The notes below the pieces were generated by a model. That model saw only the letters and a list, made by a program, of their open reading frames with translations, searched no databases and was not told the DNA's origin. Position numbers and translations under genes: made by a program. Shown one piece after another: positions 52,869 to 64,000 of a stretch of 64,000 nucleotides of DNA (position 1 is its first letter; the number at the start of each line of letters is the position of its first letter). The DNA is from Nitrospirales bacterium (GTDB lineage Bacteria; Nitrospirota; Nitrospiria; Nitrospirales; UBA8639): the NCBI GenBank assembly GCA_021604105.1, contig BQIW01000004.1, forward strand, positions 1 through 64,000, in the 5' to 3' direction.

Positions 52869-53906
52869 CTATTCTGAGGACAAACGCTGATTTTCAGGTT
52901 TTGGGGCTTGGAGCGTCTCTAGATAATACGTGAGAGCCTTCCCATCTTTTTCTGAAATCCCCAAATTCGGCATCCTGGTATGTTTTTTCATAGATTGAGG
53001 ATATAAAATCCATCGATAGACCCATGTAGGATTGAGGCGAAAACCTGCTCGATCCAATGCAGGTCCAACCACACCACCTACATCATTGAGACTGTGACAC
53101 CCCTGACATCCGTATTTATAATTATATAACTGCTCTCCCAGTTTGGCTTGGACCGCACGTTCTTCTTCAGCTATGGAAAGATCAGGGCGTGGGACTTGTG
53201 GTTTTTTCGGTCTCTTTAAAAAATTATCAACGGCGGCTTTTGCCGTTTCATATTTTTCATTGGCGGCAAGAAAAACTTCTTCTTCAGGTATTGTCACTTC
53301 TTTGGGTTCGTAACTTTCAAGCTGCTCATCAGTCAACGTTTCTTCATAGGCTGCTTGCGCGGCCTCTGCTTTTTGGGTAGCCGCCTCAAAGGCGGCCTTT
53401 GCGGTTTCCATCTCTTGCTGTGCTGCCTGGAACACCTCTTCTAATTCTTTCTTTCTGGTTTCCAAATCATAGCTCAGCGACATCCCATGAAGGGTTCGAA
53501 CGTATCCCACAATTGACCAGATTTCTTCCTCCGATAACGTATATTTAAATGTCGGCATGGTGGCTACTGCAAAATAATCCATATCATCAATGACTTTTTG
53601 ATCCGTCGTATCTTTCATGTCCCGGTAAATGGTATGGAAAATTTCCTCGTCACTGAAAGTGGACATTTCGGAAGTGGACGCCAGATTTTTAGGTCTGGGG
53701 TCTGACATCCGCTCCCAATTGAATCCTTCTCCCTGCTGACCCGTCTCCCCATGGCAATGACTACAATAGTGGTTATAGAGCTTTCGACCCTTCGCCGTTC
53801 TCTCATCCTCAAAAAGGGCACAGCCAGAAAATAGCGTGAAAGTTATTCCGAGGACGGCCAACCCGATGACTGTCATATCGCGACCGCCTCCCGCTACCCG
53901 TTTCAT
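52869..53906 (-). CDS. Diheme c-type cytochrome lipoprotein with coiled-coil insert
   Basis: 345 residues. A lipobox (LFSGC, C29) anchors it to a membrane. Two heme c sites: C48-S-H-C51-H52 and C267-Q-G-C-H271. Between the two cytochrome domains (about 145-250) lies an Ala/Glu/Lys-rich coiled coil (FQAAQQEMETAKAAFEAATQ onward). Probable axial Met residues are in AVATMPTFKY and KHTRMPNLG. Its ATG overlaps the next upstream gene's stop by 4 bp. It is the last gene of the operon. Confidence 0.9.
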   Translation of the reverse strand: MKRVAGGGRDMTVIGLAVLGITFTLFSGCALFEDERTAKGRKLYNHYCSHCHGETGQQGEGFNWERMSDPRPKNLASTSEMSTFSDEEIFHTIYRDMKDTTDQKVIDDMDYFAVATMPTFKYTLSEEEIWSIVGYVRTLHGMSLSYDLETRKKELEEVFQAAQQEMETAKAAFEAATQKAEAAQAAYEETLTDEQLESYEPKEVTIPEEEVFLAANEKYETAKAAVDNFLKRPKKPQVPRPDLSIAEEERAVQAKLGEQLYNYKYGCQGCHSLNDVGGVVGPALDRAGFRLNPTWVYRWILYPQSMKKHTRMPNLGISEKDGKALTYYLETLQAPKPENQRLSSE

Positions 53907-54739
53907 ACCGCTTGCCCCTTTCTCAGTTTTCTAACTATCACCAATTCAAAGGCCGTTGCGAGCACTAACCCCAAAATGACCCAACCAAAAATGGAATTAT
54001 CTGCACTCGGTTCGGCACGAATATACCACCAAGTGGAAACGGCTTTCTGACCCCCTTTTTCCTTTACCAGACCATCCACGACCGCCCCATCCCAAAAAGC
54101 AAATGCTACGCTTCTCCATTCGCCTTCCTCCACTTGGACATCCTGATCATCCTCGGTTTTCAATAAACGGGAAAAGACCACTTTCCAGATGCCATTTTCC
54201 CAAACACCTTTCGCTTGAATATCCTGGTGGGGTTGGGTTTCCAAGGTCTTAAACCCTTTTGCGCTCATATCAACTGCCTTGCCACTTTCATTTTTCCAAT
54301 ACCAAATGTTTACCGGTCCCCCTTCAACCTGCAACATTTTCTGACCATGCGCGAAATGAGCTGGTTTATCACCAACCATAAATTCAAGTGCGGCGGCATC
54401 GGCGGCATCTTCCGCAGGATCGGCATATTCCACGAGAATAGCCATTTCTTGGCCATTATGAACACCTTTAACCTTGACGGACTTCACAGTCACCTCCTGG
54501 ATTCTAGGAGGCCAATGCACCTGAGGCGCCAGGTTAAATTCAGAACTAGGCACAGAATCCCATTGTGAAGAATTAGGGTCTTCGGACGGCAAGCTACCTT
54601 CTAATTGATACAATCGAACCGAGACACTCCCAGGTTCTTCCGAAGCAGGTGGCTCATTGGCAAAAGCTGACGAAAATCCCAGGACCCCGAACAGCCCAAT
54701 AAGGGATAAAGTCCTGAGGCTTCCTAGTCCGTTCAACAT
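53903..54739 (-). CDS. Heme-b-binding protein, DMSO-reductase type II gamma-like
   Basis: About 278 residues from ATG 54739 (GGAG 8 bases upstream). A signal peptide (LSLIGLFGVLGFSSAFA) is followed by an ethylbenzene-dehydrogenase/NxrC-like heme-b domain (about 45-240: VHWPPRIQEVTVKSVKVKG, WYWKNESGK, GIWKVVFSRLL, VAFAFWDGAVVDG). One C-terminal membrane span (WVILGLVLATAFELVIV). Relatives serve as gamma subunits that accept electrons from a molybdoenzyme, but no molybdoenzyme is encoded in this window. Probably an electron-transfer partner of the operon's cytochromes. Confidence 0.85.
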   Translation of the reverse strand: MLNGLGSLRTLSLIGLFGVLGFSSAFANEPPASEEPGSVSVRLYQLEGSLPSEDPNSSQWDSVPSSEFNLAPQVHWPPRIQEVTVKSVKVKGVHNGQEMAILVEYADPAEDAADAAALEFMVGDKPAHFAHGQKMLQVEGGPVNIWYWKNESGKAVDMSAKGFKTLETQPHQDIQAKGVWENGIWKVVFSRLLKTEDDQDVQVEEGEWRSVAFAFWDGAVVDGLVKEKGGQKAVSTWWYIRAEPSADNSIFGWVILGLVLATAFELVIVRKLRKGQAV

Positions 54740-54781
54740 GTCATTTTCTCCACTCATTCATCCACAACATAATTGGCCTGA

Positions 54782-55507
54782 CTATTCTTCTTCTTCCCAA
54801 GTCCGAGGGGTTTGGTGTGCCCCATCATATTCACCCATAATAATTTTCCAAATAAACTCCTCTGGCAATTCATCTTCCCATCGAGGCATAGCCGATTTCC
54901 ACGGCATTCCTTCTACGGGTAAACCCACTCCTCCTTTTTTTATTCTCCAGAACAAATAGGCCTCTTGTAATTGCGCAATAGTTCCCGGATCACTAAAGTT
55001 GGCAGGAGGAGGATTAAAGCCAGGGGCCGCCGGACCCTTTCCATCATAATTTGCTCCGTGACAGGGTGAGCAGTAGGCGGCATACAGACCTTTGCCCATC
55101 ATTATATTCTCAGGTGTTTTGGGATAAGGGTTTGACAAGCCTACAAATTCACCTGGAGGGGCCGGATGAATGGTCCTGTTTTCGGCAGGAGGAAGATCGC
55201 TAGGCACCAAACGACTATACGTTTGCCACCCTACCAAAAGCGGGAACATTACCAACACCGCCAATCGGGCCATTTGGCTTGCTCCGGTCTGCCCTTTTCC
55301 AGATAAAAATCTGAAGACTGGACCCATCATGGCTTCCAAAGAAGACGCACTCATGGTTCCATAGATCAGAATCCCACTCAAAACAAGGGCCAAATATAGA
55401 TAAATTAAACTGGCTGGGAGTGGCGCCGTTACTAAGGGAAGAAGAAATTTCAAAAATATGAACATTCCCGCAAGAATGATAGCTCCACTAATGATAGGGC
55501 CTTTCAT
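54782..55507 (-). CDS. Membrane-anchored monoheme cytochrome c
   Basis: 241 residues. Three hydrophobic segments (about 5-25, 33-55 and 80-96) precede a periplasmic cytochrome c domain with C146-S-P-C-H150 (YAAYCSPCHGANYDGKG). A Met in VEGMPWKSAMPRWEDE likely completes the axial pair. It belongs to the minus-strand respiratory operon, 27 bp after the preceding gene and 24-42 bp before the heme-b gene. Confidence 0.9.
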   Translation of the reverse strand: MKGPIISGAIILAGMFIFLKFLLPLVTAPLPASLIYLYLALVLSGILIYGTMSASSLEAMMGPVFRFLSGKGQTGASQMARLAVLVMFPLLVGWQTYSRLVPSDLPPAENRTIHPAPPGEFVGLSNPYPKTPENIMMGKGLYAAYCSPCHGANYDGKGPAAPGFNPPPANFSDPGTIAQLQEAYLFWRIKKGGVGLPVEGMPWKSAMPRWEDELPEEFIWKIIMGEYDGAHQTPRTWEEEE

Positions 55508-55534: not shown

Positions 55535-56173
55535 TTAGCGATCCGCCAATTTTTGCGTTTGAGATTTAAGTGGTGAGGTTACCGACGCCACCTTTAACGA
55601 AGTGTCCGGTCCTTCCGCAGACTCCATTATATCTTCAACTTTGATACTGATGGGCTCCCCACTCATTTTTTGAAGAAACGCAATAACCGAATAAATTTCC
55701 TGCTTGCTTAACCCAATAGGGTCCTGGTCGATGTGTGGCATCTGCGCAGGATATTCTTTTGGAACTCCATCATGTCTGAAGTCTAAATAAATATAGGCTT
55801 GAGGCTGAGTTAAACTTTCATAGATAAATTCAGGAGAAAGCTTTGCTCCAATGCCACTTAAATCAGGACACCTGGCCGATTCGCTCGGTCCAATGGAATG
55901 GCACAAGGCACATTGTCCCTTGCTAAAAAATATTTTTTGTCCGATAGAGGCCAAATCATCTGGACTTTTGACGCTAGCAAGATCGAAAGTTTCCACTGCC
56001 GGAGGCAAGGAGGCCATTTGAGGAACACTCAAGGCAATCAGGCTAAAGACTCCCAACACCATTGCGACGAAACCAAGTACCCGAAGGAACATGCCCTTAA
56101 TAAACAACAGGATGAGGATACCCACCCCAATGACACACATGCCGATAATCTGCAATAGCGCGACTTCACTCAT
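55535..56173 (-). CDS. Membrane-anchored monoheme cytochrome c
   Basis: 212 residues. Two N-terminal spans (about 6-27 and 31-51), then a cytochrome c domain with C88-A-L-C-H92 (KGQCALCHSIGPSE) and probable axial Met in YPAQMPHID. About 30 disordered residues rich in Ser and Lys form the C-terminus. Second of several similar small cytochromes in the operon. It may shuttle electrons between the bd-like subunit encoded upstream and the other c hemes. Confidence 0.9.
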   Translation of the reverse strand: MSEVALLQIIGMCVIGVGILILLFIKGMFLRVLGFVAMVLGVFSLIALSVPQMASLPPAVETFDLASVKSPDDLASIGQKIFFSKGQCALCHSIGPSESARCPDLSGIGAKLSPEFIYESLTQPQAYIYLDFRHDGVPKEYPAQMPHIDQDPIGLSKQEIYSVIAFLQKMSGEPISIKVEDIMESAEGPDTSLKVASVTSPLKSQTQKLADR

Positions 56174-56234: not shown

Positions 56235-58097
56235 CTATTCAAGCTTTTCCCCTGAACTCGGTGCACCGCCAGCCATCGCCGGAGCGGTGTGGCCAGGGAT
56301 ATCCACGGGCGATCCCTTTGGTGGTTGAGCTTTGGCTTTATCTCCCAAGGTCGCCACCCAAAAAATAAACGCAACGATCAGGCAAAACACAAAGGTATTG
56401 AGCGACATAAATGCCGCCGCATACCCTAACGCAGGAGAATAAGCATAATCCGAGGTATCTCTCATAACACCATAAATGTGCCAGTGAACCCGTGATGATG
56501 ATCGGGCATATCCCATTAATGACATGAGTAAAATTACCATTACCGCATTTAGTACCAAGCTATACCCGGCTCGAATGGGCATTTTCCCCCAGACCATTTC
56601 CGTTGTCGTTTTTGCACTTTTCATCAATAAAGCTGTTAATGGGGTGAATGTCACCATGATGAACAGGACAATTAAAACCTGCGCAACCGAGAAATAATTA
56701 ATCCGGATAATAGCCGGAACAAAATATCCCCAAACCCCAAGAACCACAACAGCAATACCTGCAATCACCAGTAAAGCTCCCATAATAGCCTTGGCAGCTT
56801 TGGCCCATCCTGCGGTTTCTTGTTTCCCCGCCCGCCAATACATGATGAAACTCATAAACGTCACGAGGATCATGATATTGGAAACCGTCATTTTTGCGGA
56901 CATAACCCCGAACACTCCCAACAAGGGATGGTGAGTCCCACCCATTTTTTGGGCTTCCGCCAAGCTCGCCACCAAGGAATGAGGAGTCATCCATACACCA
57001 AGGCACAATAGCAAGACGATCAACATCCCCATAACCGGTTTTTTATATTGGCCTTCAGAACCTGGGATTCGATGGGTAATCCCCAGCCAAAAATAATAAT
57101 TAGCTCCGAGGAAGAGCACCCCGATGAGCATAGCCTGAAGGATAAACAGCCAAGCCAAAAACCCACCCATAAGGGTAATCCCCATTTGTTGGTTGTATTG
57201 ATAAACTTCCCGCATTAGCCAATATCCGGCAAATGGGAGGGGCAACATACCAAACACCCCAATAAAATTACCCACATACCCCATCCAATCGTAGTGCTCC
57301 CGCTCTTCACGCGATACCGCAAGTAAATAGCGGACACCCGCATACGCTCCGACTATAAATCCACCCAGCACCACATTGGCGATCAATCTATGGATATTGA
57401 CAGGCCACCATGTTGGGTTTTGCATGGCCATCCAAGCTCTCGCCCAAGCATCTCCCTCCCCTACCACCACTGGACTGGCCTGAAAGGTTGCCCATGAGTT
57501 GGGGACGATCATGATGCCGAGGGCAAAAAGATTCAAAAGAAACCCTAAAAAAAGATGGAATGTCTTTTTATTTCCCTGCATATAATCCCACCCATACCAA
57601 TACATATAGAGGGTGGCCGTTTCCAATAAAAAGAGCAGGCAATAGACAAGGAAGGAAGGGAAAAACATATCAGTCAGGTAGGCCATTAACTTTGGATAGA
57701 GTCCGATCAGAAGGAACAAAAGGATTCCTCCGAAAAGGGCCGTGGTGGCATAAGCTGATGTAAGGAGCTTCGTAAACTCTTTGGCGAGTTTGTCGTACCG
57801 TTGCTCTTTGGTTTTCCATCCAACCAATTCGCATATCCAGGCAAAAATCGGGACACCTAACACAAAGCCAGCCAGCAATAAATGCTGTTGCGCGACCACC
57901 CATACCAGGTTTCGGCTACCGATGCCGGGGACATCCCGATATTCCACCGACATAGCCTGAATCTCCGCACCTCCAGCCGCCATAGCTAAAGCCGGGAGAA
58001 AGAGAAGGGCCAGAAAACTTCCTAATTTTAGCAATCCAGGCATTCTATTCATTCCTTGCACAATGGTTGCATGTCGCAATTGGCCGGCCGATGTCAT
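56235..58097 (-). CDS. Cytochrome bd-like subunit I, paralogue 2
   Basis: Roughly 600-630 residues, about 14 membrane spans. Start is uncertain: ATG 58097 has GGGAGG 5 bases upstream, and ATG 58043 (MPGLLKLGSFLALLF signal-like) has AAGGA. With residue numbers from an upstream ATG at 58133, CydA-like features are H84 (VAQQHLLLAGFVLG), E171 (LLETATLYMYWYGWD) and H248 (WWPVNIHRLIANV). The quinol-loop GRQPW motif of true CydA is absent, and no cydB gene is nearby. It is longer than its neighbour at 62020 by a C-terminal bundle and tail. It probably carries hemes b and moves electrons or protons in this operon's complex. Confidence 0.8.
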   Translation of the reverse strand: MTSAGQLRHATIVQGMNRMPGLLKLGSFLALLFLPALAMAAGGAEIQAMSVEYRDVPGIGSRNLVWVVAQQHLLLAGFVLGVPIFAWICELVGWKTKEQRYDKLAKEFTKLLTSAYATTALFGGILLFLLIGLYPKLMAYLTDMFFPSFLVYCLLFLLETATLYMYWYGWDYMQGNKKTFHLFLGFLLNLFALGIMIVPNSWATFQASPVVVGEGDAWARAWMAMQNPTWWPVNIHRLIANVVLGGFIVGAYAGVRYLLAVSREEREHYDWMGYVGNFIGVFGMLPLPFAGYWLMREVYQYNQQMGITLMGGFLAWLFILQAMLIGVLFLGANYYFWLGITHRIPGSEGQYKKPVMGMLIVLLLCLGVWMTPHSLVASLAEAQKMGGTHHPLLGVFGVMSAKMTVSNIMILVTFMSFIMYWRAGKQETAGWAKAAKAIMGALLVIAGIAVVVLGVWGYFVPAIIRINYFSVAQVLIVLFIMVTFTPLTALLMKSAKTTTEMVWGKMPIRAGYSLVLNAVMVILLMSLMGYARSSSRVHWHIYGVMRDTSDYAYSPALGYAAAFMSLNTFVFCLIVAFIFWVATLGDKAKAQPPKGSPVDIPGHTAPAMAGGAPSSGEKLE

Positions 58098-58163
58098 TCT
58101 GGCCTCCCTTTGATCGTTCATTATATTATTCAAGGCTACTCACCCAGAGGCCGCAATCCCCTC

Positions 58164-59060
58164 CTAGGGCTTTTCCCCATCCTTTATCGAAGGTTGCTTT
58201 CCAGCCTTATTTTCCTGTTCGGCTTTCTGTGATAGGTCGCCCGCTTCTTTTGACGATTCCGAACCTTCAGACTTTTCTTCCTGAAGCTTACTGACCACAA
58301 GTTCCGCATTAGCCAGAACTTGCTCCGCTTCATTCATTACCTTCTGTGGCTCAATTTTGACCGCTGTTTTTGTTTCAAAAGTATAGACGTATTCTTCATG
58401 TGGGTGTGGTGTCGTCGTAGGCATGAGCACCCAGAAGAGAAATACCAGCACGACTCCCGTCCCAGTAAGTGCTGTTAGGAGGAGAGGTTGATCTGATGGT
58501 ATACGCAAGCTATCCCAAAAATTTGCCTGTTCTACTGCTGACCCTACTACCGGTTTCCCATTTTTTACAAAGGGTTGAGCCAGCCACCCCAGGCCATACA
58601 GCCACCCCAATATACAAAGAATAAGGACAATAGAGGCCACACTCCCCCACATCACCAGTTCAAGACTTATCTGTTCCGCGACTGGAATGACCATTATATT
58701 CTCTTTAAAAGATTCAACAATACTGGAAACCACCGACTGAGCCGTTTCCGCTACCGTAGAGACCAGAATCATGATGATCGGTAATGCCACTGCACTAAAG
58801 GCTACCCATCGTATCCATAGATGCAGACCAAAGCCTGGCTTCGGATCTACCTTCAACCGGTCAATAAATACTGTTCTTGCGCAAAGACCAAGAGCCCAAA
58901 TATCCACGGGTATGGAAACAAGCAACAAGAGAAATAACCCGGTACCCTCCCAAGGATGCATATGCGCCGCTAGCAACAACAAGGCGACCACCATCTTTAT
59001 TGGGAATCCGGTCCAGAATGTAGGCCAAAAAACAAGAAGCCCTAACTTCGTATTTGACAT
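58164..59060 (-). CDS. Integral membrane protein of the respiratory operon
   Basis: 298 residues from ATG 59060 (MSNTKLGLLVFWPTF). About six spans: roughly 15-35, 38-58, 85-110, 140-165, 195-220 region, and LTALTGTGVVLVFLFWVLM. The C-terminal 80 residues are hydrophilic and highly charged (KVMNEAEQVLANAELVV, then SKEAGDLSQKAEQENKAGK), probably a coiled coil. No heme-binding CxxCH. I do not recognise a family. Tight spacing to cytochrome b (14 bp) and the bd-like gene (30-67 bp) implies it is a structural subunit of the same complex. Confidence 0.7.
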   Translation of the reverse strand: MSNTKLGLLVFWPTFWTGFPIKMVVALLLLAAHMHPWEGTGLFLLLLVSIPVDIWALGLCARTVFIDRLKVDPKPGFGLHLWIRWVAFSAVALPIIMILVSTVAETAQSVVSSIVESFKENIMVIPVAEQISLELVMWGSVASIVLILCILGWLYGLGWLAQPFVKNGKPVVGSAVEQANFWDSLRIPSDQPLLLTALTGTGVVLVFLFWVLMPTTTPHPHEEYVYTFETKTAVKIEPQKVMNEAEQVLANAELVVSKLQEEKSEGSESSKEAGDLSQKAEQENKAGKQPSIKDGEKP

Positions 59061-59074
59061 TATGTTTCCAGAGA

Positions 59075-60187
59075 TTAGTCTAAAAAGTGCCGGTTTATAA
59101 TGGCTGACACGGTAAACACCAGAATAAATACCATAATCACGGTCCAACCAATTAGAGCCACTGGCCGTTTAAATATATTTCGCTCTGAACTTGTATCCAA
59201 AAATGGCAGTGCCGCTAAAAACGCCATAAATGCCCCCGGTATGGCCATAGCTCCAAGAAATTGACCAAACTCCCCGCCAAAAATTTTCAATCGAAGCAAT
59301 TGAAACAAGAACAAGAAATACCACTCTGGCTCAGGGTGATAATCCCCAGGGTCCGGAGTCGCCTGCTCCAGCAATACTACTGGCTCAATGAAGGCAAGGG
59401 AACAAATGATTAAAAATACAGTGGCCATGGCCACAATATCTTTCCAGATTTGACGCGGGAAAAAGTAATCCGTTTTGGCTTTAATTTCTTCCGGTGAGCC
59501 CCTGAACGGACCTGCCGGCCCAGCCTTTCTAAAAAGGAAAATATGCAGACCGGCCAGCCCTGCCAATGCAGCCGGCAGGACCATAACATGAATAACAAAA
59601 AACCGGCTTAGCGTCATTTGCCCGGGAGTGGGACCACCCTTTAGAAATCGAGCCAAAAAATCCCCAACAATTGGAGTTTTATCCATGATTTCTACGCCAA
59701 CCACCGTTGCCCAGTATGCGCGTTGATCCCATGGGAGAAGATAGCCTGTAAAACCAAAACCCATCACAATGCCAAATAAAGCCAAGCCGACTAACCAGAC
59801 CAGTTCCCTGGGCTTTTTATACGCCCCCCATAAAAATACTTGGGACATATGCGCGAAGACCATCACGACCATGGCAGAGGAACCCCAAAAATGATAGCTC
59901 AGAAGGAACCACCCATAGTCCACTTCGTGGATGATATACTGCGTACTCGCGTAAGCGTGGTCTGTACTGGGGACATAATAGAACATCAACAGTATCCCCG
60001 TGACGACTTGAAGAATAAAGATAAATAGCAATACAGAACCAAACGCATAGGCCCAGCGAGAGCCTCCAGGAATTGGCTCATTTAGCATTTTAGCCTGAAT
60101 ATTTTTCAGACCTACCCGCTCATCAACAAACTCAACAACTTTTTCGAATGCGTTTTGTTGACTTGCGACTTGACTGTCTTCCTTCAT
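59075..60187 (-). CDS. Cytochrome b of a bc/b6f-type complex
   Basis: 370 residues from ATG 60187 (28 bp after the Rieske stop). Heme-ligand pairs: H99/H113 with 13 residues between, and H200/H215 with 14 between, the b6f-type spacing. The quinol-site motif appears as HPEPEWYFLFLFQLL (PEWY). QRAYWATVV is in the Qo loop. About eight spans, so cytochrome b and subunit-IV parts are fused. It oxidises quinol and passes electrons to the Rieske protein. An upstream extension that overlaps Rieske is not needed. Confidence 0.95.
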   Translation of the reverse strand: MKEDSQVASQQNAFEKVVEFVDERVGLKNIQAKMLNEPIPGGSRWAYAFGSVLLFIFILQVVTGILLMFYYVPSTDHAYASTQYIIHEVDYGWFLLSYHFWGSSAMVVMVFAHMSQVFLWGAYKKPRELVWLVGLALFGIVMGFGFTGYLLPWDQRAYWATVVGVEIMDKTPIVGDFLARFLKGGPTPGQMTLSRFFVIHVMVLPAALAGLAGLHIFLFRKAGPAGPFRGSPEEIKAKTDYFFPRQIWKDIVAMATVFLIICSLAFIEPVVLLEQATPDPGDYHPEPEWYFLFLFQLLRLKIFGGEFGQFLGAMAIPGAFMAFLAALPFLDTSSERNIFKRPVALIGWTVIMVFILVFTVSAIINRHFLD

Positions 60188-60215
60188 GCGCCTTTCACCA
60201 TTCCATCCTAGGCTT

Positions 60216-61154
60216 TTACAGAAGCCGAATTTGGTTATTAACCCCGGCTTTATACTCAACATCAATGATCTTTACTTCTCCACCGGCATCAACTTGCAGA
60301 GGAAGAACATCGAGGGGTCTCGGTGCCGGCCCCTCAATAACCTTTCCAGCTTCATCATAAATACTCAGATGACAAGGGCACAAAAATACCCCATCTGGAA
60401 AGTTTTTCGTCCTTCTCCATTTATAGCCACAACCCAAATGGGGACATTTGCCAGAGTATCCTATATAGGGAGAATTTGCTTTGTTGACCCAGATGACATC
60501 ACCCTTATTATCGTAAAACTTCTTATCATTTCCCTCGTAGACGGCTTGTTGAACGGCCGGAGTTGCTTTGACCACCCAAATATTTTTCTCAATCTGTTGC
60601 TCCGGCATAAAGGCTTCTTTAAACCCTCGGGTAAACTTAAATTGGAATCCAATATTCTCTTTATTCACCTTCTTGACATTGCCGACGGTAAACCAGGCAT
60701 TATCGAAGGGTATAAACATAGGCTTCATCAGATACTTCAACACAGGATACACCAAGGGCAAGGCAATTAACGTCCCAATGGCATGCGTCATGTTGGTAAA
60801 AAATGTTCGTCGTGGAACTCCCTGCTCCAATCGAGGAAGAGGAACTAAAATCTCTCCTGGCTCAACATGCAAATGATCCTCCAAGTGCGCAATTTCAACT
60901 TCCTTAATCGTAACGTACTGATCTCGCTCCAGTATGGGAAATTGACTGAATTCTTCCGGTGAACACCGAAGGACAACTTCCTCCTCATTCACCACTTCTT
61001 GAACTTGGTCAATAGGAACTTGGCGTTCCGCCCCGTGTCTTTCTTGAACGATGACATGGCTAATTTCGTGGGAAAGTGGATCAACAATAATCTTAGAAAT
61101 CTTCCCGACTTCCGTGTTCGCACACAATGCTTTTGCTGTCAATTTTGGTTGCAT
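60216..61154 (-). CDS. Rieske Fe-S protein with N-terminal PRC-barrel domain
   Basis: 312 residues. Residues 1-95 look like a PRC-barrel domain (EVGKISKIIVDPLSHEISHV, VPIDQVQEV). R115-R116 in VPRRTFFTNM followed by a hydrophobic stretch (125-140) looks like an internal Tat signal anchor. The C-terminal Rieske domain has ligands C237 and H239 (CPHLGC) and C259 and H262 (CPCHLS), with C242 and C261 as the usual disulfide. It accepts one electron from quinol next to cytochrome b, which starts 28 bp downstream. Confidence 0.93.
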   Translation of the reverse strand: MQPKLTAKALCANTEVGKISKIIVDPLSHEISHVIVQERHGAERQVPIDQVQEVVNEEEVVLRCSPEEFSQFPILERDQYVTIKEVEIAHLEDHLHVEPGEILVPLPRLEQGVPRRTFFTNMTHAIGTLIALPLVYPVLKYLMKPMFIPFDNAWFTVGNVKKVNKENIGFQFKFTRGFKEAFMPEQQIEKNIWVVKATPAVQQAVYEGNDKKFYDNKGDVIWVNKANSPYIGYSGKCPHLGCGYKWRRTKNFPDGVFLCPCHLSIYDEAGKVIEGPAPRPLDVLPLQVDAGGEVKIIDVEYKAGVNNQIRLL

Positions 61155-61182
61155 AACCAGGGAAAACCTCAGATGATGTGGA

Positions 61183-61995
61183 TTATTTCATTTTTATGGG
61201 CTTCGGAGTATCAACTGACTCATCTTTTAACGAAGCAAGAAAGGCAACAAGCGCATCAATTTCCTGTGGGAACATGAGATCTTTATACTTATCAGGCATT
61301 TTCCCTTTATTGAAATCCTTATCGAATCCTTCTGCTTTCCAACTCTTTGGATCAATAATTTTTTCTTTCAACTGTTCAACGGTCATAAGATTACCGATAT
61401 TATCCATAACAGGCCCACGCTTTTTCCCACCTTGCCCATATAGTTTATGGCAGTTATAACATTCTTGTAGTTCCCATTGCTCTTTTCCAAGGGCTACAAG
61501 ATCGCCGGGAGCTGCTCCACCCCCGCCTGCGCTGGTCTGAACTGCAACCTCGACTTTAGCATCAGCACCTAAAGAACTCAGTTGCTTCGAAATAGCCTTA
61601 GCCCGTTCATCCAACTCTTTTGCCCTGGCTATTAATTCCTCGGCCTTCCCTTTCTCTGATTGGGCCCGACGAAGTTTCAGGACTTTTTCAATTTTTCCCT
61701 TCTCATCTTCCGGATCAAACTGGGGCAGAATCGATGCCCCTGCGATATAGAGACCAGACAGCAGAAGGTAAAAGACCACCAACGCCCCCACCGCCTTCAC
61801 GCCTTCCAACCGTTTCATTGCTGGAGCATCTAAAAGGATGAACACCAAAGCCCCTAGTATCGCGTAAAGGAAGAACATGATCTGAAAGACTGGCGGAAAA
61901 TGAGTGTATTTAGCGCCCACTACCAACAACACCCCAATAATGACCCCCAAGGCGGTCTTCTTCATCACACTCTTGGCAAAACTTTGGTTAGCCAT
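61183..61995 (-). CDS. Membrane cytochrome c with coiled-coil segment
   Basis: 270 residues. Three hydrophobic segments near the N-terminus (about 13-30, 37-57, 68-88), then a Lys/Glu-rich coiled coil (about 95-142: KIEKVLKLRRAQSEKGKAEE), a Gly/Ala linker, and a cytochrome c domain with C179-Y-N-C-H183 and a probable axial Met in FNKGKMPDKY. It lies next to Rieske and cytochrome b, in the position where a cytochrome c1-like electron acceptor would be expected. Confidence 0.9.
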   Translation of the reverse strand: MANQSFAKSVMKKTALGVIIGVLLVVGAKYTHFPPVFQIMFFLYAILGALVFILLDAPAMKRLEGVKAVGALVVFYLLLSGLYIAGASILPQFDPEDEKGKIEKVLKLRRAQSEKGKAEELIARAKELDERAKAISKQLSSLGADAKVEVAVQTSAGGGGAAPGDLVALGKEQWELQECYNCHKLYGQGGKKRGPVMDNIGNLMTVEQLKEKIIDPKSWKAEGFDKDFNKGKMPDKYKDLMFPQEIDALVAFLASLKDESVDTPKPIKMK

Positions 61996-62019
61996 TTGTT
62001 TCCTCTTTTTTTAACCTTC

Positions 62020-63735
62020 TCATTTAGCTTCAACCGGCACTGACGATGCCAATGACGTGGCTGACTTCGGACTGCCAGCTTTCAGCGTGACAAGGATGGC
62101 AAAACTCACAACCGCGTAAAACACAATAGTCACCCCCGTAATCCACCATGCCGAGTAGGCTAGAGTCGGTGTAAACGCCTCAGGCGTAAAATCGGGAACG
62201 AGGTTATACACATGGTAATATTTTCGAGTTAACGAGCGTACCGTTCCCATGAGCCCCATTGTCCAGATTGAACTAAAGGCTAGGAAAATGAGGACGAACT
62301 GGGACGCAAAATCAATTTTCCCCCATACAATCGTCCCTCGCTTAATGGCGCGGTTATATAGCAGATAATTGACCACCGTCAGGAATACGAGAGTAAAGGC
62401 TGCAGCATTCTTCGCCGGCATGAGCGCTAATTCGCTCGCCCAGGAAGGCAGTTCGAGTTCCTCGGTGGCCAGCCCTTGAGTCGGAACAAAACCATGCGGG
62501 GTCATCCAAATCGCATCAGCAACCACAATCATCAAAAAGCCAACTTTGATCATGGTGAATGCCGACACCGTGAAATTCTTGAGACCAGGAACTTTACCAA
62601 GGATCATAGGAAGGACGACTATTATCACTAAGACAATTAACGATTGCCATTCAGGCGGAGGGAACATTTTCCATGTATATCCCATGATGGCTGGCATGAG
62701 CAGCACCACCACCGCGACGAATCCTGATATTCGGACCTGTTCAACTCCCTGTATCCGCTTTAAACTCAACCAGATATAATAGTTACTAGCCAAGAAGATA
62801 AGTCCGACCATTGCGCCTTGCATTTCAAAGAACATCGATAACTGATCGGCCATCATGTAGGGACAAATCGAGGCATCATAGTCACAAAGCTCATAGGCTA
62901 GTAGGTAACCCATAAACGGAAGAAGCAAGAGGGCTCCTACACCAATCATGTTGCCAACAAAGCCCATCCAATCATAATAGGCTCGCTCTTCATCCGTTTT
63001 TGATCCCATAAACATATACGCGGCAATTAACCCGGCAATAAATCCGCCAAACGTCACATTTCCGACCAGCCGATGCAGGTTGAGGGGCATCCAGCTGAAA
63101 TTAGCCATTTTGTCCCAGAGGCTGGCCGTTTGGATAAACTCTACCAAGGATAAATCTCCGGCTGCCTTAGCAGGTGTATTCATAAAGCTAGTCGGTCCGT
63201 CAATGACAAAAAGTGTCACCGTTCCAACTATATTCAGTAGGATACCAAGAGCGATGTGTCGTCCTTTCTTCGCTCCCTTCATGGAATCCCATGAATAAAA
63301 GTAGGTATACAAAATAATGGTTTCCAGGATAAACAGCAGAGGATAGATGACCGCAAACACCAGGAAAAAATGCTTGATCAACCATGTCGAGAAATCAGGA
63401 TATGTCCCGAGCAGGACAAATATGAACAAACCTCCGGTTAATGCAGTCATGCTGTATAAAATGACTGTAACCTTAATGACTTCCTTGGCCAGACGGTCAT
63501 ACTTGGGATCGTTATTCTTATACCCAAGCCATTCAGCCACCACGGCAAATATCGGAGCGCCTAAAATAAACGCCGCAAATAAGATGTGAAGTTGAGCGAC
63601 GACCCACACCGCCGTTCGATTTCCCGAATAGGGAAAATCCACAAGGGGAGCGTCAGGAACCTGTCCAAAGGCCACAGCCCCACCACATAGGCCCAACGCT
63701 ATAACTATCCATAGACTTCGATTCAGTGTTTTCAA
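62020..63735 (-). CDS. Cytochrome bd-like subunit I, paralogue 1
   Basis: 571 residues, TTG start with AGGAGG 10 bases upstream. A signal peptide (WIVIALGLCGGAVAFG) is followed by about 13 spans. CydA-like residues are H50 (VAQLHILFAAFILG), E138 (FILETIILYTYFYSWD) and H221 (MPLNLHRLVGNVTF). As in its paralogue at 56235, the GRQPW quinol motif is missing and there is no cydB partner. Bd-like proteins of this kind recur in Nitrospira genomes. Whether it reduces oxygen or works as a quinone-active heme-b subunit of another complex cannot be told. Confidence 0.85.
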   Translation of the reverse strand: MKTLNRSLWIVIALGLCGGAVAFGQVPDAPLVDFPYSGNRTAVWVVAQLHILFAAFILGAPIFAVVAEWLGYKNNDPKYDRLAKEVIKVTVILYSMTALTGGLFIFVLLGTYPDFSTWLIKHFFLVFAVIYPLLFILETIILYTYFYSWDSMKGAKKGRHIALGILLNIVGTVTLFVIDGPTSFMNTPAKAAGDLSLVEFIQTASLWDKMANFSWMPLNLHRLVGNVTFGGFIAGLIAAYMFMGSKTDEERAYYDWMGFVGNMIGVGALLLLPFMGYLLAYELCDYDASICPYMMADQLSMFFEMQGAMVGLIFLASNYYIWLSLKRIQGVEQVRISGFVAVVVLLMPAIMGYTWKMFPPPEWQSLIVLVIIVVLPMILGKVPGLKNFTVSAFTMIKVGFLMIVVADAIWMTPHGFVPTQGLATEELELPSWASELALMPAKNAAAFTLVFLTVVNYLLYNRAIKRGTIVWGKIDFASQFVLIFLAFSSIWTMGLMGTVRSLTRKYYHVYNLVPDFTPEAFTPTLAYSAWWITGVTIVFYAVVSFAILVTLKAGSPKSATSLASSVPVEAK

Positions 63736-63773: not shown

Positions 63774-64000
63774 TTACTCTGCCGCTTTCTCAGCCTCTCC
63801 ATCAGCTGGAGCCTCGACGGCAGGAGCATCACCTCCAGGTGCTGACCCGGCTGTTCCCGCAGGAACCCATTGCTTTTTCGCAACATCATACTCCATGCCC
63901 TTGAGCCCAAAGCTAGCTTCATACGCAATGACTTTCCAGATGGCGTCCTCTGAAAGCTTGCTTTTCCACGCCTTCATTTTTGTCCCTTTAACTCCCTCAG
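63774..64000 (-). CDS. Cytochrome c, C-terminal part only
   Basis: The frame is open to the right edge of the window and continues beyond it. The visible 75 residues end a cytochrome c domain (MKAWKSKLSEDAIWKVIAYE, where the first Met is the likely axial ligand) and a Pro/Ala-rich tail. An internal ATG at 63977 is not the true start. It is the most upstream gene of the respiratory operon visible here, 38 bp before the bd-like gene. Confidence 0.85.
   Translation of the reverse strand, partial: EGVKGTKMKAWKSKLSEDAIWKVIAYEASFGLKGMEYDVAKKQWVPAGTAGSAPGGDAPAVEAPADGEAEKAAE

Follow-up and report, generated by a model that had tools for sequence, protein, structure and literature searches.

Two separable CydA-like proteins in the conserved complex III and bd-like gene cluster of Nitrospirales

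Nitrospira is a globally important nitrifier whose terminal oxidase has, to our knowledge, never been isolated, and it matters which of its bd-like proteins does what. The gene cluster considered here, which combines complex III genes with two bd-like genes, reportedly goes back, as a proposal, to the 2010 study of N. defluvii by Luecker et al. It lies in a window of 64,000 nucleotides (positions 1 to 64,000, forward strand, of contig BQIW01000004.1, assembly GCA_021604105.1) from a Nitrospirales bacterium, in which two CydA-family proteins, BD1 and BD2, are encoded on either side of the genes for a Rieske protein and a cytochrome b. In N. moscoviensis, Mundinger et al. (2019) described a cluster of CIII_1, bd-like_1, bd-like_2, alt_nxrC_1 and several cytochromes c, which is strongly transcribed on nitrite, and proposed for it a III-IV supercomplex, possibly in contact with NXR; the same organism also has cydAB beside its bd-like genes (PMC6606698).

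A second group of described systems is the OR-N family of Murali et al. (2021), whose members are described in the papers that cite it as bd-type oxygen reductases (PMC12342949, PMC10839748). A NIDE0901-like OR-N2 protein is present in Nitrospirales (PMC12342949, PMC10839748), a CydAA' enzyme composed of OR-N1 and OR-N2 has been hypothesised (PMC10839748), and the missing quinol site and missing CydB of bd-like proteins have already been published (PMC10839748). The labels OR-N1 and OR-N2 are taken from these citing papers and are not mapped to BD1.

The locus in the window is this published cluster and is not new as a locus. The same ten-gene order is found in N. moscoviensis NSP M-1 (L141) and N. 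defluvii NOB1 (L155), and the match to the published N. moscoviensis cluster rests on gene content and order. The cluster order is kept in 22 Nitrospirales loci, and the ten-gene order is complete in 51 of the 80 loci of named genomes, many of the others stopping early at a contig end. BD1 orthologues occur throughout Nitrospirales and a BD2 orthologue in nearly all of them. Given this conserved order, the arrangement is not due to chance, and the order supports co-function; the locus is real, highly conserved and important in respiration. What the comparison adds is that BD1 and BD2 are separable, as each occurs without the other in relatives. With moderate confidence, we read the locus as a conserved Nitrospirales complex III and bd-like oxidase cluster of two modules, complex III plus BD1 (module A) and an oxidase built on BD2 (module B). 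Two modules are favoured because of this separability, the fusions of BD2, the phylogeny, the context of BD1 in its outgroups and the rarity of COX1.

Separability is seen in both directions. Three genomes of family f4 (L075-L077) lack BD2; in them BD1, the membrane-anchored cytochrome c gene cc1, Rieske and cytochrome b are succeeded by genes for other cytochromes c. The sole other CydA-family protein of G039 and G045 is of the bd-like_3/4 type, that of G045 being placed in this clade by the tree, and in G042 no CydA-family protein besides BD1 was detected. A BD2 orthologue at 57-65% identity is present in eleven class-level genomes without BD1 (G158, G178, G193, G200, G202, G255, G267, G303, G323, G412 and G416), whose best BD1 matches, at 37-44%, are in the places of BD2 or bd-like_3/4; G336 was left out of this count, its contig beginning just upstream of cc1 (L187). 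In G367, both modules are present on different contigs (L084, L184). In ten genomes (L080, L090, L093, L187-L192 and L195), a CALCH cytochrome c is joined to the C-terminus of BD2, and the tree places these fusions in three distinct clades. In the same tree, the BD1 group (21 rows, including the outgroups L085 and L185) and the BD2 group (28 rows) form separate clades with 100/99 support each, bd-like_3/4 is the sister of BD2, and all three clades stand apart from canonical CydA. The nearest outgroups of BD1, L085 and L185, pair BD1 with a diheme cytochrome c and have neither Rieske nor cytochrome b beside it. A COX1-family match above the cut-off was obtained in 11 of the 50 genomes checked, several of them marginal; a strong heme-copper oxidase match is lacking from the majority of the Nitrospirales checked, which was counted in favour of the two-module reading.

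The same comparison bears on the alternative that survives best, in which a single terminal oxidase, a CydAA'-like heterodimer of BD1 and BD2 with A' in place of CydB, is bound to complex III as a III-IV supercomplex. This proposal joins the supercomplex idea (PMC6606698) to the OR-N CydAA' hypothesis (PMC10839748, PMC12342949) and draws on published statements in all three papers. It fits the placement of both genes in one operon of constant order in Nitrospirales, as well as the BD1-BD2 homology (467 aligned columns of a profile alignment, 37% identity), which CydA/A' pairs would show. It is nevertheless rather unlikely, since BD1 and BD2 are each found alone in related genomes and lie on separate contigs in G367, the fusion partner of BD2 is a cytochrome c and not BD1, and the sister clade of BD2 is bd-like_3/4 and not BD1. 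Because of this last relationship, OR-N1 may be something other than BD1. An earlier note, made from the sequence of the window, had suggested a combined quinol-cytochrome c-oxidase assembly. That idea is a published one and agrees with the conserved order, while the data favour two modules over two equivalent subunits.

For the two-module reading, we infer from the observed gene content, gene order, module separability, residue conservation and fusions which electron donors, electron path, heme types and heme occupancy apply, that BD2 reduces O2, that BD1 is attached to complex III and that the parts associate physically. In module A (BD1-cc1-Rieske-cytochrome b), a b6-type complex III would have BD1 as a bd-like membrane subunit of its own, docked to cc1. 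Module B (BD2-cc2-cc3-EB_dh-cc4) would be an oxygen reductase that lacks CydB. Electrons released by nitrite oxidation would pass through the c-type hemes of cc2, cc3 and cc4 and the EB_dh heme to BD2, whose b-type hemes would reduce O2 with a donor other than quinol. Module A would connect the quinone pool to this cytochrome c pool by electron exchange, running forward with low-potential donors and in reverse for CO2 fixation. The modules are linked in Nitrospirales and would probably form a loose III-IV supercomplex there. The gene-cluster hypothesis thereby becomes a set of separable predictions, namely that BD2 and cc2 make a minimal oxidase and that BD1 co-purifies with complex III.

A further reading concerns the origin of module A, and we hold it only tentatively. 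BD1 and its membrane cytochrome c may be a mobile bd-like electron-transfer module, not an oxidase, that was recruited to complex III in Nitrospiria. BD1 would then be a permanent extra subunit of complex III that helps reverse electron exchange with cytochrome c, while in its deepest relatives (L085, L185) it is paired with periplasmic molybdoenzymes. If true, the locus would hold a complex III that has a bd-like subunit and, beside it, a distinct cytochrome c oxidase without CydB.

Several points weigh against the two-module reading. The OR-N complex lacks experimental confirmation (PMC10839748), and most of the compared genomes are metagenome-assembled genomes (MAGs) of 85-100% completeness. 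BD1 keeps most of the conserved His scaffold of BD2 and is not obviously a dead paralogue, judging from the alignments. Family f4, if it respires O2, would have to use BD1 or bd-like_3 as its oxidase.

The membership of both proteins in the CydA family is well supported. Their PF01654 matches exceed the Pfam cut-off, and a search of NCBIfam gave no family for either. The best matches of their AlphaFold models (mean pLDDT 78.0 and 78.9) in a fold search are solved CydA chains, with TM-scores near 0.5 on target length. The earlier observation that two CydA-like proteins flank Rieske and cytochrome b is confirmed by these matches, and its coordinates are exact.

The roles of the E. coli CydA residues are established for the family. 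Among the heme His and Glu residues that the earlier note took to be kept, the equivalents of H19, H186 and E107 are invariant in the BD1/BD2 alignments (H50/H84, H221/H248 and E138/E171), whereas E99 (E101 in Geobacillus CydA) is replaced by an invariant Tyr (Y131/Y164) according to the 5doq alignment and those of BD1 and BD2. M393, the axial ligand of b558, has no clearly conserved counterpart; the nearest position in BD1 and BD2 varies, in a C-terminal half that aligns poorly and in which the mapping is uncertain. GRQPW, in the region of the b595 ligand E445, is missing from the BD1 and BD2 sequences as had been noted, and is kept in both canonical CydA proteins of the same genome. Where canonical CydA reads W-x-x-x-E-x-GRQPW, BD1 and BD2 have W-M-T-P-H, and the His of this motif may be the counterpart of E445, whose mapping in the C-terminal region is uncertain. 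The Q-loop quinol motif KLxxxE is likewise missing from both sequences. A quinone-binding role, which the earlier note had put forward, is not supported for BD1 or BD2, because the known quinol site is absent. The reported lack of cydB at the locus is borne out; the whole genome has only two PF02322 genes, each adjoining a canonical cydA elsewhere, which makes two complete cydAB pairs. Normal CydAB genes elsewhere had been named as speaking against the earlier proposal, yet these pairs are not decisive, because they are ordinary and self-contained and are also present in N. moscoviensis beside bd-like genes.

These residues also inform the alternative in which BD1 is itself an O2 reductase. 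Module A would then be complete in itself as a quinol-to-O2 supercomplex (cytochrome b-Rieske-cc1-BD1), with module B as a second, NXR-fed oxidase. BD1 retains the shared set, with H50, E138, H221 and H508 invariant and H414 near-invariant, and the profile alignment pairs H160/H193, H414/H385 and H508/H552 of BD1 and BD2. H414 is lost in L062 and L085, however, and the extra His residues H280, H401, H402 and H550, invariant in BD2, are lacking in BD1. In the f4 genomes, which have module A, no BD2, no COX1 match and no canonical CydA were found, and BD1 as a second oxidase stays under consideration for this reason; overall we regard it as improbable. A heme-copper oxidase that offsets the loss of BD2 in f4 was considered and rejected, as there is no COX1 match in this family.

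Least probable, and very much so, is that neither protein is an oxidase and that both serve reverse electron transport, as subunits that transfer electrons or bind quinone: the absent quinol and GRQPW motifs, the molybdoenzymes adjoining BD1 relatives and the related bd-like gene conserved in the NXR cluster of the anaerobic anammox bacteria (PMC6606698) agree with it, but it would leave most Nitrospirales without a cytochrome c oxidase, COX1 being rare and canonical CydAB quinol-fed, and the BD2-cytochrome c fusions indicate cytochrome c oxidation. Taken singly, BD1 may have a non-oxidase role; for BD2 such a role is unlikely.

The genes of the cluster are listed in the table below. BD1 and BD2 bracket cc1, Rieske, cytochrome b and the gene of a protein with five transmembrane segments (5-TM protein), all on the minus strand. 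The co-oriented genes extend past BD2 to position 52869 with cc2, cc3, EBD and cc4, and the first gene of the cluster is cc0, a monoheme cytochrome c gene that crosses the end of the window; monoheme cytochrome genes also lie immediately upstream of BD1 in L075 and L186. The earlier description as a tightly spaced operon holds for the intergenic gaps (-4 to 61 bp), while the cluster is longer than described, since cc1 between BD1 and Rieske, the 5-TM gene that precedes BD2, the four genes downstream and a cytochrome c gene upstream had gone unmentioned. Scans for promoters and terminators did not rise enough above shuffles to define the operon ends. The cluster genes encode six c-type heme motifs in all.

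Table. Genes of the cluster in window coordinates, with family matches (E-values) and motifs.
Gene	Position	Strand	Description
cc0	63774..64000	-	Monoheme c-type cytochrome of 221 aa, CASCH; only its 3' part lies in the window, whole gene contig C4:63774-64439 (L011:13775-14440)
BD1 (bd-like_1)	62020..63735	-	CydA-family, 571 aa; TTG start after AGGAGG; PF01654 1.2e-15
cc1	61183..61995	-	Membrane-anchored monoheme c-type cytochrome, CYNCH, transmembrane segments; PF00034 8.1e-11
Rieske [2Fe-2S] protein	60216..61154	-	PF00355 6.8e-8; CPHLGC...CPCH motif intact
Cytochrome b	59075..60187	-	PF00033 6.3e-50, PF00032 4.3e-8; open reading frame (ORF) opens 60265, likely start ATG 60187
HYP (5-TM protein)	58164..59060	-	Weakly conserved; ORF opens 59147, likely start 59060
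BD2 (bd-like_2)	56235..58133	-	CydA-family, 632 aa; PF01654 5.7e-14
cc2	55535..56173	-	Membrane-anchored monoheme c-type cytochrome, CALCH; PF00034 3.4e-8
cc3	54782..55507	-	Membrane-anchored monoheme c-type cytochrome, CSPCH; PF13442 4.2e-8
EBD	53903..54757	-	NXR-gamma/EB_dh-type heme b protein, C-terminal transmembrane anchor, alt_NxrC_1 type; PF09459 5.6e-20
cc4	52869..53906	-	Diheme c-type cytochrome, CSHCH and CQGCH, last gene of the cluster; PF13442 3.1e-18

The features of a complex III are all present, comprising the Rieske motif, both bis-His pairs of cytochrome b (125/139 and 226/241, with the b6-type spacing of 13 and 14 residues), an intact PEWY Qo motif and a cytochrome c partner. 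The gene cc1 adjoins BD1 in every complete locus, and the cc2 domain is the one that is fused to BD2 in relatives. EBD scores 3.7e-30 against TIGR03477, which is below the cut-off of that model. The Rieske protein is extended at its N-terminus by about 110 residues, possibly PRC-barrel-like (Pfam E 0.038, below the curated cut-off). The 5-TM protein has no Pfam match, shows 33-37% identity in distant Nitrospirales and is represented in L186 and L075 by a short, C-terminal-only counterpart of 121-172 aa. It was considered as a degenerate CydB and rejected, as it has no CydB match, is poorly conserved and is shortened in distant relatives.

Elsewhere in the genome there is an NxrA-type protein of the DMSO reductase type II family (L180), which is consistent with a nitrite oxidiser. 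A bd-like paralogue of the bd-like_3 clade (L013:4523-6694, G000 contig C25; ORF of 724 aa, 43% identity to BD2) lies directly upstream, on the same strand, of this molybdoenzyme (L180:280-3720, 1146 aa). On G000 contig C8, L014:7769-10311 holds two short overlapping tandem CydA-like ORFs (about 394 and 454 aa), and a gene of the molybdopterin family lies some 4 kb from them; the same type of pair occurs in L089, and the L014 pair is possibly the CydAA' linked to alternative complex III (ACIII) that is described for other Nitrospirales. A COX1-family ORF of 770 aa (L194:4696-7005, G000 contig C63) is of a size that would fit a quinol-type nitric oxide reductase better than a terminal oxidase.

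Some individual loci of other genomes differ in structure. The BD1-like and diheme cytochrome c genes of L085:6690-13441 and L185:326-6391 stand beside genes for molybdoenzyme and iron-sulfur subunits, the molybdoenzyme of L085 belonging to the DMSO reductase type II family and that of L185 being nearest to PhsA-like models. In the single-contig MAG bin371, to which L055 and L109 are both presumed to belong, the cluster appears to be divided, with BD1-cc1-Rieske about 1.1 Mb from the BD2 module and no cytochrome b found next to either part, which could be a misassembly. In the MAG of L049 (14398-16115), BD1 is split into two ORFs and its homologous stretch holds several in-frame stops, through sequencing error or decay.

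Compared with canonical CydAB, BD1 and BD2 share the N-terminal helices, the equivalents of H19, H186 and E107, and the fold, and differ in lacking GRQPW, the Q-loop motif, the E99 equivalent and CydB and in having a different C-terminal half. With the OR-N family, BD1 and BD2 share membership in the CydA family, the lack of a quinol site and of CydB, and cytochrome c as the presumed donor. The TO_1 to TO_4 complexes of Candidatus Manganitrophus similarly combine a bd-like protein with periplasmic cytochrome b or complex III components (PMC9040806). TO_2 has two MrpD-like subunits (PMC9040806), whereas the operon in the window has no MrpD-like gene. In L090, L187-L192 and L195, BD2 is fused to cytochrome c and any adjacent Rieske/cytochrome b genes are of another, split type, except in L187, where complex III genes of the type in the window occur within the same cluster. 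Two large membrane ORFs beside the fusions in these eight loci look like the MrpD-like subunits of TO_2 in Manganitrophaceae. The closest system is the CIII_1/bd-like cluster of N. moscoviensis, which has the same ten genes in the same order and a described content that matches, and which differs in the sequences of the proteins, whose identities range from 36 to 85% and are lowest for the 5-TM protein.

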